This document shows, one piece after another, positions 1 through 4,415 of a DNA stretch of 64,000 bases (the stretch's first letter is position 1; each line of letters begins with the position of its first letter). Under the pieces are notes generated by a model. It worked only from the letters and a program-made list of their open reading frames with translations, was not told the DNA's origin and did not search any database. The stretch is taken from the NCBI RefSeq assembly GCF_002266465.3, contig NZ_CP029427.2:4094501-4158500 (forward strand), given 5' to 3'. This DNA is from Bradyrhizobium symbiodeficiens (lineage in GTDB: Bacteria > Pseudomonadota > Alphaproteobacteria > Rhizobiales > Xanthobacteraceae). The position numbers and the translations under genes are program-made.

Positions 1-2374
1 TGTTCAGGTCGAGCGTCATCGACGCCGCGATGAACTCCACCGGATAATGCGCCTTCATGTAGGCGGTGTGATAGGACACCAGCGCATAGGCCGCCGCGTG
101 GCTCTTGTTGAAGCCGTAGTCGGCGAACTTGGCCAGCAATTCGAAGATGGTCTCGGCTTGCCCCTTCGGCACGCCGTTCTTCACCGCGCCTGCGACGAAG
201 ATGTCGCGCTGCTTGTCCATCTCGGCGCGGATCTTCTTGCCCATGGCGCGGCGCAGCAGGTCGGCATCGCCGAGCGAATAGCCCGACATCACCTGGGCGA
301 TCTGCATCACCTGTTCCTGGTAGATGATGACGCCGAAGGTTTCCTTGAGGATCGGCTCCAGCACGGGATGCAGATATTCCGGCTCCTCGTCGCCGTGCTT
401 GCGCGCGCAATAGGTCGGGATGTTCGCCATCGGACCCGGGCGATACAGCGCCACCAGCGCGATGATGTCCTCGAAACGGTCCGGCCGCATGTCGACCAGC
501 GCGCGCCGCATGCCCTGGCTTTCAACCTGGAACACGCCGACCACCTCGCCGCGCGCCAGCATCTGGTAGCTCTCGGCATCGTCGATCGGCAGCGTGGCGA
601 GATCGACGTCGATGTTGCGCGGCTTGAGCAGCTTGCAGGCGACGTCGAGCACGGTCAGCGTCTTCAGGCCGAGGAAGTCGAACTTGACGAGGCCCGCGGG
701 CTCGACCCATTTCATGTTGAACTGGGTCACCGGCATGTCGGATTTGGGATCGCGGTAGAGCGGCACGAGCTCGCTCAGGGGCCGATCGCCGATCACGATG
801 CCGGCCGCATGCGTCGAGGCGTGGCGGGTCAGACCCTCGAGGCGCTGGGCGATGTCGAAGGCGCGCGCCACCACCGGATCCTCGTCGCGGAACGCCTGCA
901 GTTTTGGCTCGCTCTCGATCGCGGCGGCGAGCGTCACGGGCGCCGCCGGATTCTGCGGCACCAGCTTTGTCAGCTTGTCGACCTGGCCATAGGGCATCTG
1001 CAGCACGCGGCCGACGTCGCGCAGCACGCCGCGCGCCTGCAGCGTTCCGAAAGTGATGATCTGCGCGACCTGGTCGCGGCCGTAGCGCTGCTGCACATAC
1101 TGGATCACCTCGCCGCGGCGGTCCTGGCAGAAGTCGATGTCGAAGTCCGGCATCGAGACGCGTTCGGGATTGAGGAAGCGCTCGAACAGCAGGCCGAACT
1201 TGATCGGGTCGAGGTCGGTGATGGTCAGCGCCCAGGCGACCAGCGAGCCTGCGCCGGAGCCGCGGCCCGGTCCGACCGGAATGCCCTGGCCCTTGGCCCA
1301 TTTGATGAAGTCGGACACGATCAGGAAGTAGCCCGCGTATTTCATCCGCAGGATGACGTCGAGCTCGAACGCCAGGCGCTTGCTGTAATCCTCGTCCGTC
1401 ATGCCCTGCGACAGGCCGTGGACCCGCAGGCGATTGGCGAGCCCCTCCTCCGCCTGGCGCTTCAGTTCCGCCGCCTCGACTGCGCCGGCGTCCGAGCTCT
1501 GCGCGGCGCCGACGGTGAAGAACGGCAGGATCGGCTTGCGCGTCATCGGGCGGAACGAGCAGCGCTCGGCGATCTCCACCGTCGAGGCCAGCGCCTCCGG
1601 AATGTCGGCGAACAGCACGGCCATCTCGGCGCGGGTCTTGAAGCGGTGATCGGGGGTGAGCTGCTCGCGCTCGGTCTCGGCGATCAGCCGCCCGCCGGCG
1701 ATGCACAGCAGCGCGTCATGCGCTTCGTAATCGTCGGTCGCGGCGAAATACGGCTCGTTGGTCGCGACCAGCGGCAGTCCCTTGGCGTAGGCGAGGTCGA
1801 TCAGGCCGCTTTCGACGCGCCGCTCCTTCTCGGTGTTGTGGCGCTGCAATTCGACGTAGAGGCGGTCGCCGAACAGGCCGGCCAGGCGCTCGCAACGCAG
1901 CGCGGCCAGCTCGGCATAACCGCCGGCAAGCGCCAGCGAGATCGGCCCGTCCGGCCCGCCCGTCAGCGCGATCAGACCCTCGGTCTCACCCTCGAACCAG
2001 TCGAACTTGATGAACGGCGCATGGCTGTCGGGCGTCTCCAGGAACGCGCGCGAGTTCAGCCGCATCAGGCTGCGATAGCCGCGCTCCTGCGCGGCCAGCA
2101 GCACCACGCGCGACGGCCCGATCGCGTTGCGCGCGTTCGGGTCCTGGTCGCCGAAATCGATCGCCAACTCGCAGCCGACGATCGGCTGGATGCCGGAGCC
2201 CGCCATCTTGTCGGAGAACTCCAGCGCACCGAACAGATTATCGGTGTCGGTCAGCGCCAGTGCCGGCTGATGGTCCTTCTTGGCAAGCTCGGCGAGCTTG
2301 GCGATCTTGATCGAGCCCTTGAGCAGCGAATAGGCCGAGTGAACGTGAAGGTGAACAAATCCGGCGCTCGGCAT
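1..2374 (-). CDS. dnaE: DNA polymerase III subunit alpha, 5' part (runs off the left edge)
   Basis: Catalytic subunit of the replicative DNA polymerase III holoenzyme. The minus-strand frame is open from the ATG at 2374 to the window edge, 791 codons; the family is usually about 1150-1180 residues, so the tau/clamp-binding C-terminus lies outside. The N-terminal PHP domain begins with His-rich HLHVH (residues 8-12). The polymerase active-site motif PDFDIDF is at about residues 409-415, with D410 and D412 as metal ligands, followed by CQDRRGEV. The start gives the usual short leader before HLHVH. lolD and lolC often precede dnaE in this group; here they lie 9 kb upstream with accessory genes between. 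Confidence 0.97.
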   Translation of the reverse strand, partial: MPSAGFVHLHVHSAYSLLKGSIKIAKLAELAKKDHQPALALTDTDNLFGALEFSDKMAGSGIQPIVGCELAIDFGDQDPNARNAIGPSRVVLLAAQERGYRSLMRLNSRAFLETPDSHAPFIKFDWFEGETEGLIALTGGPDGPISLALAGGYAELAALRCERLAGLFGDRLYVELQRHNTEKERRVESGLIDLAYAKGLPLVATNEPYFAATDDYEAHDALLCIAGGRLIAETEREQLTPDHRFKTRAEMAVLFADIPEALASTVEIAERCSFRPMTRKPILPFFTVGAAQSSDAGAVEAAELKRQAEEGLANRLRVHGLSQGMTDEDYSKRLAFELDVILRMKYAGYFLIVSDFIKWAKGQGIPVGPGRGSGAGSLVAWALTITDLDPIKFGLLFERFLNPERVSMPDFDIDFCQDRRGEVIQYVQQRYGRDQVAQIITFGTLQARGVLRDVGRVLQMPYGQVDKLTKLVPQNPAAPVTLAAAIESEPKLQAFRDEDPVVARAFDIAQRLEGLTRHASTHAAGIVIGDRPLSELVPLYRDPKSDMPVTQFNMKWVEPAGLVKFDFLGLKTLTVLDVACKLLKPRNIDVDLATLPIDDAESYQMLARGEVVGVFQVESQGMRRALVDMRPDRFEDIIALVALYRPGPMANIPTYCARKHGDEEPEYLHPVLEPILKETFGVIIYQEQVMQIAQVMSGYSLGDADLLRRAMGKKIRAEMDKQRDIFVAGAVKNGVPKGQAETIFELLAKFADYGFNKSHAAAYALVSYHTAYMKAHYPVEFIAASMTLDLN

Positions 2375-2602
2375 GGTCGCGTGACGGCCTCTGACAGATG
2401 AAATGGAGCGGTCGCCGGCACCAGGGGGATGTCCGGGAGATCGATCCGAGGACCCCGCTCCGCCTTCCACCCGCCTTTGCCGACTCGCCCCGTAATGGTG
2501 GGGCGTCACCGCGCCAGAGTCCACGCCGGAGCGGCCGCTTCGCCGCGTCGTCCCGCTTTTCCCCAAGGGGTAGCGGGAGGTCCACCGCCGGGGGCCGCGG
2601 AA

Positions 2603-2701
2603 TCAGAGCTGCGGTATGACCTGGGCCCAGATCGCGATCATTCCGACGAACAGCGTGATCGACGCAAGTGCGGCGGCCTCTTCCACGAAAACCCTGAACA
2701 T
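2603..2701 (-). CDS. 32-residue SOS-controlled inner-membrane peptide (SidA-like candidate)
   Basis: A 33-codon gene beginning MFRVFVEEAAALAS and ending IWAQVIPQL. It has a short N-terminus with charges at R3, E7 and E8 and then one hydrophobic segment (about residues 9-30), so a single-pass inner-membrane peptide is expected. A good ribosome site (AAGGGAG) precedes the ATG. A LexA-type box lies 36 bases upstream inside a recognisable promoter. In Caulobacter a 29-residue SOS-induced membrane peptide, SidA, blocks division through FtsW/FtsN; size, topology and regulation match that model, but homology was not tested. It is too short for most gene finders. Confidence 0.75.
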   Translation of the reverse strand: MFRVFVEEAAALASITLFVGMIAIWAQVIPQL

Positions 2702-2733
2702 GGCTTGCTCCCTTGTTGGAACGTATGAAGAAC

Positions 2734-2762
2734 ATTGTTCTCATTTTGTTCTCTGGAGTCAA
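2734..2762 (-). promoter_or_regulatory. Promoter of the SOS peptide gene
   Basis: On the minus strand, -35 TTGACT (2757-2762) and -10 AACAAT (2734-2739) are separated by exactly 17 bases. The predicted start of transcription is near 2727, leaving a leader of roughly 26 bases that contains the ribosome site. The LexA-type box occupies the spacer and overlaps the -10, the arrangement expected for direct repression. Confidence 0.6.
2737..2751 (-). promoter_or_regulatory. Alphaproteobacterial SOS (LexA) box
   Basis: The plus strand reads GTTC, seven bases (TCATTTT), GTTC, a perfect match to the alphaproteobacterial LexA operator GTTC-N7-GTTC. The only gene positioned to use it is the 32-residue peptide gene whose ATG is at 2701. 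A less perfect GAAC-ATT-GTTC overlaps its left half. Confidence 0.8.
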
Positions 2763-2814
2763 GCGCGGCGGACGACCTCCAATGGCAATGGTTAACTCGC
2801 TGAATTCACGTAAT

Positions 2815-2844
2815 AAAAAAGCCCCGGCGAAGGCCGGGGCTTTT
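2815..2844. terminator. Bidirectional rho-independent terminator
   Basis: A perfect 8-bp GC stem (2821-2828 with 2833-2840) closes a GAAG loop. It is flanked by six A on the left and four T on the right, so it can end transcription in either direction. It sits 31 bases past the stop codon of the outer-membrane protein gene, which reads toward it on the minus strand. Confidence 0.85.
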
Positions 2845-2874
2845 CGTCGAGCGCTCGAATCCGAGCGATCAGTC

Positions 2875-3597
2875 TCAGTAACGGCCGAGCATCGGGCCGC
2901 CGAACTTGTAGTTCAGGCGAACGAGGCCCATGTCGACGTCCTGCTTGACGTTGACCGCCAGAACACCGGCCGGGCCGGTCAGGTTGCGGTCGTTGCCACC
3001 GAGGAAGATGTGGTTGTACTCGGCGCCAATCGACCAGTTCGGGGCGAAACCGAACTCGAGGCCCGCGCCGACAGTGCCACCCCAACGGGTGTCGTTGGCC
3101 GATGCCAGCGACACGCCGCCGAACGAGGTATCGTACTTGGTGCCGACCACAGCAGCACCGCCCTTGACGTAGAGCAGCACGTTGTTCCAGGCGTAACCGA
3201 CCTGGCCGGTGATCAGACCGAACGAATCGATCTTGGTGCTGTTGGTGTTGCCGGAGAGCGCCCCGACATGGCTGCCCGAGAAGTCGGCCCAGTTGCCCTG
3301 GCCTTCCAGGCCGAACACGAACTGGCCGGACTGCCAGCGATAGCCGATCTGGCCACCGACCGTGCCGCCGGTTGCATCATGCGAACCATCACGGCCGAAG
3401 CCGACGATGTCCCACTTCGCGTGCGAAGAACCGCCGCCGCCGTTGATACCGATGTAGAAGCCGCTCCAGTCATAAATCGCGGCGACCATCGCAGGCGCCT
3501 TGGTGTAAGGCCGTGCTGCGAGATCAGCAGCAAGCGCCGGCGCGGTCGCGCCGAGCGCGACGAGGCTCACAGCCGCAAGCAACAAGTTCTTATTCAT
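2875..3597 (-). CDS. Outer-membrane beta-barrel (Omp25/Omp31-like) protein
   Basis: 240 residues. A classical signal peptide (MNKNLLLAAVSLVALGATAPALA, cleavage near residue 23-24) precedes DLAARPYTKAP and the diagnostic YDWSGFYIGINGG segment that begins the eight-strand barrel of this rhizobial family. Alternating aromatic strands and many Gly-rich turns follow, ending in a strand that terminates with GRY. The ATG at 3597 is chosen because it starts the signal peptide; the open frame extends 53 codons further upstream without signal features. These are abundant structural surface proteins; no specific substrate can be assigned. A strong terminator follows. Confidence 0.88.
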   Translation of the reverse strand: MNKNLLLAAVSLVALGATAPALAADLAARPYTKAPAMVAAIYDWSGFYIGINGGGGSSHAKWDIVGFGRDGSHDATGGTVGGQIGYRWQSGQFVFGLEGQGNWADFSGSHVGALSGNTNSTKIDSFGLITGQVGYAWNNVLLYVKGGAAVVGTKYDTSFGGVSLASANDTRWGGTVGAGLEFGFAPNWSIGAEYNHIFLGGNDRNLTGPAGVLAVNVKQDVDMGLVRLNYKFGGPMLGRY

Positions 3598-3850: not shown

Positions 3851-4171
3851 ATGCGCAAACGAGTCGCCCTCCCCATTGTCGCCACACTTTGGCTCGCCTT
3901 CGCCACATTTGCGCTCGTGTCGAGCGTTCCCACACCTGCGCACGCGTTCGGAACGCACCATCCCTTCTGCCTCACTGGCGATGAGTGGCCGGGCCTGAGC
4001 AATTGCAGGTTCGACACCTACGCGCAGTGTCAGGCGAGCGCTTCGGGACGCGCGCTGACCTGCATCGCCAATCCGTATTTCGCAGGTCAAAGCGACGACC
4101 CCTACGCCTACCAGAATCGTCCGCGCGCGCAGACGCCGGGTTATTCGCCCCGCTACTACCTGCCGCGCTGA
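3851..4171 (+). CDS. DUF3551 family secreted protein
   Basis: 106 residues with an N-terminal signal sequence (MRKRVALPIVATLW to about PAHAFG) and a small Cys-containing domain: FCLTGDEWPGLSNCRF, then QCQASASGRALTCIANP. The Cys pattern and the Cys-Arg-Phe plus Gln-Cys plus Cys-x-x-Asn-Pro spacing are typical of DUF3551, a family expanded in Bradyrhizobium. No biochemical role is known. The ATG at 3851 has GGAGA eight bases upstream and starts the signal peptide; an upstream in-frame ATG at 3800 does not. A second DUF3551 gene follows one base later. Confidence 0.8.
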   Translation: MRKRVALPIVATLWLAFATFALVSSVPTPAHAFGTHHPFCLTGDEWPGLSNCRFDTYAQCQASASGRALTCIANPYFAGQSDDPYAYQNRPRAQTPGYSPRYYLPR

Positions 4172-4172
4172 G

Positions 4173-4415
4173 ATGGGCAGCGCGCGCCTCGCACTGGCCG
4201 TAACCGCCCTGCTCCTGGCGGGCGGAACCGCACGCGCGCAGACCTACGATCCGAGCTTTCCCGTGTGCATGCAGATCTACGGCCCCGTCGGCTATTTCGA
4301 CTGCCGCTACGACACGCTCGAGCAGTGCCGATATCTCGCCGTCGGACGTTCGGCGACATGCGTGGTGAACCCGCATTTTCCGACGAAGAAGCCCCCTCGC
4401 CGACCAGCCAATTAG
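4173..4415 (+). CDS. DUF3551 family secreted protein, second copy
   Basis: 80 residues. A signal peptide (to about residue 22, ARAQ) is followed by VCMQIYGPVGYFDCRYDTLEQCRYLAVGRS and CVVNPHF, the same Cys framework as the preceding gene (C-x(10-14)-C, Q-C, C-x-x-N-P). It begins one base after the stop codon of the first copy, so the two are probably co-translated. The pair looks like an old tandem duplication that has diverged strongly outside the Cys framework. Function unknown. Confidence 0.75.
   Translation: MGSARLALAVTALLLAGGTARAQTYDPSFPVCMQIYGPVGYFDCRYDTLEQCRYLAVGRSATCVVNPHFPTKKPPRRPAN

Follow-up and report, generated by a model that had tools for sequence, protein, structure and literature searches.

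The window analyzed here is a stretch of 64,000 nucleotides from Bradyrhizobium symbiodeficiens (contig NZ_CP029427.2, positions 4,094,501 to 4,158,500 of the forward strand). Its first edge cuts dnaE1, whose product matches the Pfam families DNA_pol3_alpha (5.9e-104) and PHP (9e-39). Upstream of dnaE1, on the same strand, lies a short open reading frame (ORF) with its own expression signals (Table 1). An initial annotation of this DNA had described a short gene with a ribosome site, a promoter with exact 17-base spacing and a perfect LexA-type box over the -10 element, placed beside dnaE, and had proposed it as a candidate SidA-type division inhibitor in Bradyrhizobium. The gene and its ribosome site are found as described, and the promoter (TTGACT-17-AACAAT, 2762-2734, minus strand) is the sole sigma-70-like site returned by the promoter scan of 2300-2900, where shuffled sequences average 0.1 such sites. 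The encoded peptide has a mean hydropathy of 2.13 over its best 17-residue stretch, and it is predicted to be a single-pass inner-membrane peptide of about 30 residues.

Table 1. Features at the dnaE1 end of the window.
Feature	Position	Strand	Remarks
dnaE1, replicative DNA polymerase III alpha	2..2374	minus	Cut by window edge; start placed by homology
Gap between peptide gene and dnaE, 228 nt	2375..2602	minus	Terminator scan
32-residue ORF MFRVFVEEAAALASITLFVGMIAIWAQVIPQL	2701-2603	minus	ATG start; 32 aa + stop
Ribosome-binding site AAGGGAG	2714-2708	minus	6 nt ahead of ATG; read from sequence
-10 element AACAAT	2739-2734	minus	Promoter scan; first LexA-type box overlaps it
-35 element TTGACT	2762-2757	minus	Promoter scan
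First LexA-type box GTTCTCATTTTGTTC (GAAC-N7-GAAC in gene sense)	2737-2751	plus	Perfect GTTC-N7-GTTC; widely conserved operator
Second LexA-type box GTTCTTCATACGTTC	2719-2733	minus	Perfect; inverted to first; over likely transcription start

The perfect box over the -10 element is likewise present, with three bases shared between them. A second perfect box, inverted to the first across a gap of 3 bp, had gone unnoticed. The first box covers part of the -10 element and the second the likely transcription start, a layout that suits a repressor. The terminator scan found no terminator-like site in the gap at 2375-2602 between the peptide gene and dnaE.

The number of such boxes is unremarkable. 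GTTC-N7-GTTC is seen 3 times in the window compared to 1.81 expected, and 150 times in the 7.0-Mb genome compared to 145 for the reversed control pattern. Box counting was rejected as evidence in itself, since the counts in both window and genome are at chance level; the significance of the box beyond chance comes from its conserved place at the locus. Boxes also precede other genes of the same genome. A box of the same type lies about 107 bp upstream of the start of lexA (PF01726, PF00717). A further perfect box, GTTCCTATTTTGTTC, lies near 3627460 (G000:C1; locus L345, box at 1461), and a 45-residue, soluble-looking ORF, MTVEKQREVIRLWNELRKLEGPAAEELRIQILECFSEKSRAKRAA, which begins 51 nt from the start of this box, is a second candidate small SOS gene. 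At 2008448 (G000:C1; locus L340, box at 1549), the perfect box GTTCTAATTTTGTTC stands directly before the gene of a DUF2130 protein (PF09903, 9.5e-93), possibly another SOS gene.

Other features of the window are recorded here as separate observations. On the minus strand, 2801-2882 gives a weak Rfam match to the Brucella sRNA BSnc120 (39.9 bits compared to a cut-off of 114); it coincides with a hairpin and T run of the terminator scan, and is probably only a terminator. On the plus strand, 3851-4171 and 4173-4415 form a tandem pair encoding small proteins with signal-like N-termini and a common cysteine pattern (FC...NCRFDTYAQC...TCIANP and VC...DCRYDTLEQC...TCVVNP).

Conservation of the peptide gene and its operator

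The peptide is present in all 36 same-genus genomes, including the window's own, which has one match. Within the family, 190 of 248 genomes have a match (E <= 0.1), spread over 36 of 47 genera, mostly as a single copy, while one genome (G063) gives two equal matches; in the order, 27 of 297 genomes match at E <= 0.01. Among 58 family loci, pN/pS in the peptide frame is 0.135, and the variable columns at codon positions 1, 2 and 3 number 15, 4 and 29 of 32. The other five frames have pN/pS values of 1.1 to 5.3 in four cases and 0.31 in the remaining reverse frame. Therefore, the ORF at 2701-2603 is a protein-coding gene under purifying selection.

The surroundings of the gene were followed in a set of 76 loci, which are the best matches of the genus, family and order searches and not a random sample. 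A perfect box lies within 140 bp of the ATG in 74 of them, and the two that lack one (L053 and L069) have single-mismatch boxes instead. The gene's position beside dnaE is also kept: 75 of the 76 loci have a dnaE that follows on the same strand, and in 72 of these 75 the peptide stop lies 107-312 nt before DnaE. The initial annotation was to be given up if frame or box were not conserved in related genomes, or if substitutions ignored codon position; the opposite is seen on each count.

Within the window's own family, both boxes occur in 59 of 60 loci, with a spacing of exactly 18 bp in 58, and 58 of the 59 loci with a box have TTGAC no more than 14 nt ahead of it. Outside this family, the same inverted 18-bp double box was seen at a single locus (L372, family f22), and at L393 and L410 two boxes of like orientation overlap. 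Duplication of the operator seems to be a recurrent event. As a separate observation, the start-to-start distance between peptide and DnaE is 1200, 686 and 773 nt at L048, L065 and L069, respectively, compared to 206-411 nt elsewhere; at these three loci either there is an insertion or dnaE has been displaced, with the peptide kept.

Distribution among Alphaproteobacteria

To place the gene in Bradyrhizobium alone is too narrow: many families of the order have such genes, and so do some that belong to other orders. Regions of 700 bp upstream of dnaE contain the box in the window's orientation and spacing in 12 of 88 class-level, 26 of 49 mostly order-level and 18 of 27 named cases. Each of six control patterns, two of them reversed and four with a spacer of 5, 6, 8 or 9, turns up in 0-2 regions; facing the other way, the box itself is found in 7 class-level, 1 order-level and 0 named regions. 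The 88 class-level regions are 28 loci and 60 more, roughly one per family, with some families represented two or three times. The 49 order-level regions are 42 from same-order genomes and 7 named ones, some from other orders (Roseibium, Methyloceanibacter, Parvibaculaceae, two Robiginitomaculum, Filomicrobium and Rhizobiaceae); they derive from 54 dnaE matches, of which G313, G038, G042 and G051 were left out and L327 is a duplicate. A recheck of the dnaE starts found L113 and L317 off by 240 and 303 nt and 16 regions off by 3-6 nt, and left the box counts unchanged.

An ORF of 24-45 amino acids that contains a strongly hydrophobic stretch lies 15-100 nt downstream of the box in 49 of the 56 boxed regions, where the Stappia and L320 entries are inner starts picked by the length rule. 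The same ORF rule is satisfied by 4.5% at the same positions in box-free regions and by 1.1% on the reverse strand. Random anchors inside boxed regions satisfy it in 26%, since many of them land close to the real gene. Counted by family, and leaving out the window's own family plus f20, f37 and f50 from the order search, the combination of box and peptide before dnaE is found in 28 of the 110 alphaproteobacterial families sampled; 21 of these are among the 43 families of the order, and 7 among the 67 that lie outside it. Named cases include Stappia, Maricaulis, a Parvibaculaceae, a Robiginitomaculum and a Rhizobiaceae genome. In the family reached through the Rhizobiaceae MAG, box and peptide (mostly 27-33 residues, e.g. 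MTDFLRDIAAFASITLFIASLSVIVMGM) are found before dnaE in 21 of 30 genomes, a non-random choice from 121 in which seven were picked for a weak peptide match. Six of those seven weak matches lie just upstream of dnaE, and that of G1036 does not. Where the pair is absent, it may have been lost, LexA may recognize a different motif, or the start may have been missed.

The family is tracked across orders by its synteny with dnaE and not by sequence alone. A class-wide search with the window-family HMM as the only guide was abandoned: it gave matches in 181 of 385 genomes at E <= 1, mostly noise. Among the matches listed, most are partial, many lie inside larger frames, and only those of G361 and G703 were recognized beside dnaE. 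The G703 match (C65, 14446-14514, minus strand) belongs to another order, is weak (E 0.018) and lies directly upstream of dnaE; this locus has no perfect box, and the contig also carries divK, about 1.6 kb further along.

Relation to Caulobacter SidA

SidA is described as a 29-residue SOS-induced inner-membrane division inhibitor of Caulobacter that acts on FtsW (PMC4211646). Its gene is CCNA_02004 (PMC10769358), and Caulobacter dnaE is CC1926 (PMC1839093). Caulobacterales genomes were located via DivK, dnaE was found in 27 of the 28 chosen, and the DNA upstream was read. In Caulobacter, a 29-residue ORF sits between a LexA-type box and dnaE, and the peptide matches the NCBIfam model NF033228, "cell division inhibitor SidA", at 7.7e-21 (73.7 bits, cut-off 35). 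The same model matches 12 of 14 Caulobacterales peptides at E <= 10, a threshold on E and not the 35-bit cut-off. Of 23 Caulobacterales loci, 16 have a perfect box. The locus of SidA is therefore laid out like that of the window peptide, in the order LexA-type box, peptide, dnaE.

The comparison with SidA that the initial annotation had called for came out differently by method: pairwise search fails, and profile and HMM comparisons link the two. BLASTP of the window peptide against Caulobacter SidA gave no alignment. NF033228 likewise gave no match to the window peptide, which falls outside the 35-bit criterion of the curated SidA equivalog. Of 13 window-family rows, two match this model weakly (best E 0.03; L060 peptide 0.067). 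None of 37 peptides of other lineages does, in a set whose Parvibaculaceae row had been cut shorter and supplied with an M absent from its DNA; on these 37, four unrelated models took one weak match each (0.05-0.23).

Profile comparison, by contrast, aligns the window family with Caulobacterales with a probability of 89% (E 2.3e-6). The match is marginal when a slightly altered Caulobacter set is used (E 0.0019; column shuffles as good in 2 of 200 and, in a repeat, 3 of 200). That set consists of 14 Caulobacteraceae rows and leaves out Maricaulis and Woodsholea, which are present in alignment A2. The repeat, meant to be segment-restricted, amounts to a second column shuffle, its "core" covering columns 0-29 or 0-30.

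Intermediate profiles connect the two ends. An order-wide profile matches Caulobacter at E 2.2e-5 and the window family at 1.3e-11, and a Rhizobiaceae-type profile matches them at 8.6e-7 and 3e-9; in each of these comparisons 0 of 200 column shuffles were as good. The order-wide set holds 23 peptides: the order:f rows, with L320 given a longer start, plus Stappia, one Rhizobiaceae row and Roseibium, whose locus lacks a perfect box, and minus the Parvibaculaceae and Robiginitomaculum rows. The other-class set in the same comparison holds 9 peptides, two f42 rows being left out. The Rhizobiaceae-type set holds 20, namely 21 peptides minus the longer L408 and L411, plus L370, with L406 trimmed to an inner Met.

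A blind HMM built only from Hyphomicrobiales peptides was run against all 801 ORFs of at least 24 residues in the 23 Caulobacterales loci. The SidA-position ORFs of 22 loci fill the first 22 ranks (E 3e-7 to 0.16), and that of the remaining locus, Asticcacaulis AC402, ranks 24th (E 1.2). This blind ranking and the shared locus weigh most, because shuffling the columns preserves composition but loses the layout of the helix. Since one direct comparison of the window family with Caulobacter is marginal, the link to SidA rests on the intermediates and the locus. By eye, the ungapped match reads R/E-E/D-x-x-A-L/F-x-S-I/V-x-x-F-V/I.

Judged from these comparisons, the window peptide is a homologue of SidA outside the curated SidA equivalog, a divergent one because pairwise BLAST and the curated model both miss it, and it is probably a SidA ortholog. 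What had been proposed as a likeness to SidA has become homology, with Caulobacter SidA at the same locus and retrieved by an HMM free of Caulobacterales sequences. SidA of C. crescentus and the window peptide share a length of about 30 residues, one helix, an N-terminal charged pair followed by an A/L-rich helix, a GTTC-N7-GTTC box before the gene and dnaE directly after it. The window peptide differs in having 32 instead of 29 residues, EE instead of RE, and a WAQVIPQL end. Its locus has an extra inverted LexA-type box and a gap to dnaE of 228 nt compared to 32-46 nt in 8 named Caulobacter loci.

Proposed function and competing explanations

In 41 of 49 peptides the N-terminal flank of the helix carries more positive charges than the C-terminal flank, and in none is it the other way round. 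This N-terminal bias makes an N-in, C-out orientation likely for the peptide family; the window peptide, with one Arg compared to two Glu on the N side, has a weak charge bias of its own. It is very probable, in our judgment, that the gene encodes a SidA homologue, most likely the ortholog, acting as a LexA-repressed single-pass inner-membrane peptide that would delay division during DNA repair. For the window peptide we infer LexA binding, SOS induction, topology, FtsW binding, division arrest and recovery as follows. In the undamaged cell, LexA would occupy one or both boxes and block RNA polymerase at the -10 element and start site. DNA damage would lead to RecA-stimulated cleavage of LexA and free the promoter. 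The 32-residue peptide would then insert in the membrane with its N-terminus inside and bind the septal cell-wall synthase FtsW, the target expected from homology to SidA, and perhaps FtsN too, so that the assembled divisome would not constrict. With the return of LexA, the peptide would be diluted or degraded and division would restart.

DidA of Caulobacter is also a damage-induced small inner-membrane division inhibitor, but it is described as SOS-independent (controlled through DriD) and as binding FtsN (PMC4211646). YneA, SosA and ChiZ are damage-induced small membrane division inhibitors as well; YneA and ChiZ differ by LysM domains and SosA by an extended helix (PMC13396833). In AlphaFold3 models published in 2026, which are not of high confidence, ChiZ, SosA and SidA are placed on TM7 of FtsW, with SidA predicted on the side of TM7 opposite to the others (PMC13396833).

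An SOS-induced membrane peptide could also have another target, for instance as a TisB-like depolarizing toxin or as a modulator of some other membrane complex. TisB of E. coli is a short SOS-induced membrane peptide, a depolarizing type I toxin with an antisense RNA. The architecture is the same, with about 30 residues, one helix and LexA-type control, and the divergence from SidA is large enough for a change of target. Homology and synteny with SidA nevertheless make this reading unlikely, as does a chromosomal gene fixed beside dnaE. In addition, an Rfam scan of 2300-3000 for known families, where a TisB-type antisense RNA was sought, brought none above its cut-off, and a family-pattern scan of viral contigs confirmed no relative.

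A further explanation takes the ORF as a cis-acting leader (uORF) that tunes dnaE1, with boxes that give SOS control of dnaE1 and a peptide that is inert. The short distance to DnaE (107-312 nt from the peptide stop in 72 of 75 loci) and the terminator-free gap would suit such a leader. A Ribo-seq study of Sinorhizobium meliloti describes a novel translated ORF, sORF25, in the dnaE1 5′-UTR, proposes a possible uORF role for some 5′-UTR sORFs and singles out sORF25 among them (PMC10117765). However, purifying selection at the amino-acid level (pN/pS 0.135), a hydrophobic helix with the same topology across diverse families, three loci where the two starts are 686-1200 nt apart, and a Caulobacter homologue that is a characterized trans-acting inhibitor render the leader very improbable. 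Finally, a chance ORF under a chance box, for which the near-equality of box and control counts in the genome might speak, has a negligible likelihood given that frame, box, spacing and neighbor are conserved over many families.

Returning to the SidA-type inhibitor, sORF25 of S. meliloti resembles the window gene as a translated small ORF at the same place before dnaE1, and differs in the possible uORF role offered by its source paper (PMC10117765). It is very likely a member of the same peptide family, because 21 of 30 genomes in the family reached through the Rhizobiaceae MAG have a boxed peptide ahead of dnaE; this identification follows position, not sequence.

Three points are new: how far the family reaches, its constant position ahead of dnaE, and an operator made of two inverted LexA-type boxes. 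In the portions of the open-licence literature covered (including PMC12700426, PMC13384398 and PMC9578287), no statement on SidA outside Caulobacter was found, and none that presents LexA-controlled peptides ahead of dnaE as a feature of the whole class. The main text of a small-ORF study of Bradyrhizobium japonicum, searched by term, does not mention dnaE, SOS, SidA or division (PMC5082802).

A broader proposal is put forward tentatively, and we would place it somewhat short of an even chance. LexA, the SidA-type brake and dnaE may form an ancestral alphaproteobacterial damage operon that predates the split of Hyphomicrobiales and Caulobacterales, in which one LexA-controlled transcript reads through into dnaE1; it would constitute an unrecognized SOS checkpoint of rhizobia and many of their relatives. 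If this were true, a single switch would halt the septum and refresh the replisome.

Many families of the order, among them a Rhizobiaceae-type one, have homologous LexA-boxed peptides next to dnaE, as do some families of other orders. The same damage brake on division is thus probably at work in many bacteria beyond the one group from which it is known. Which protein halts division after DNA damage in such bacteria becomes a question for a one-gene knockout, and the divergent set of peptides serves to find what in FtsW such peptides read. The translated sORF before Sinorhizobium dnaE1 also gains a possible meaning.
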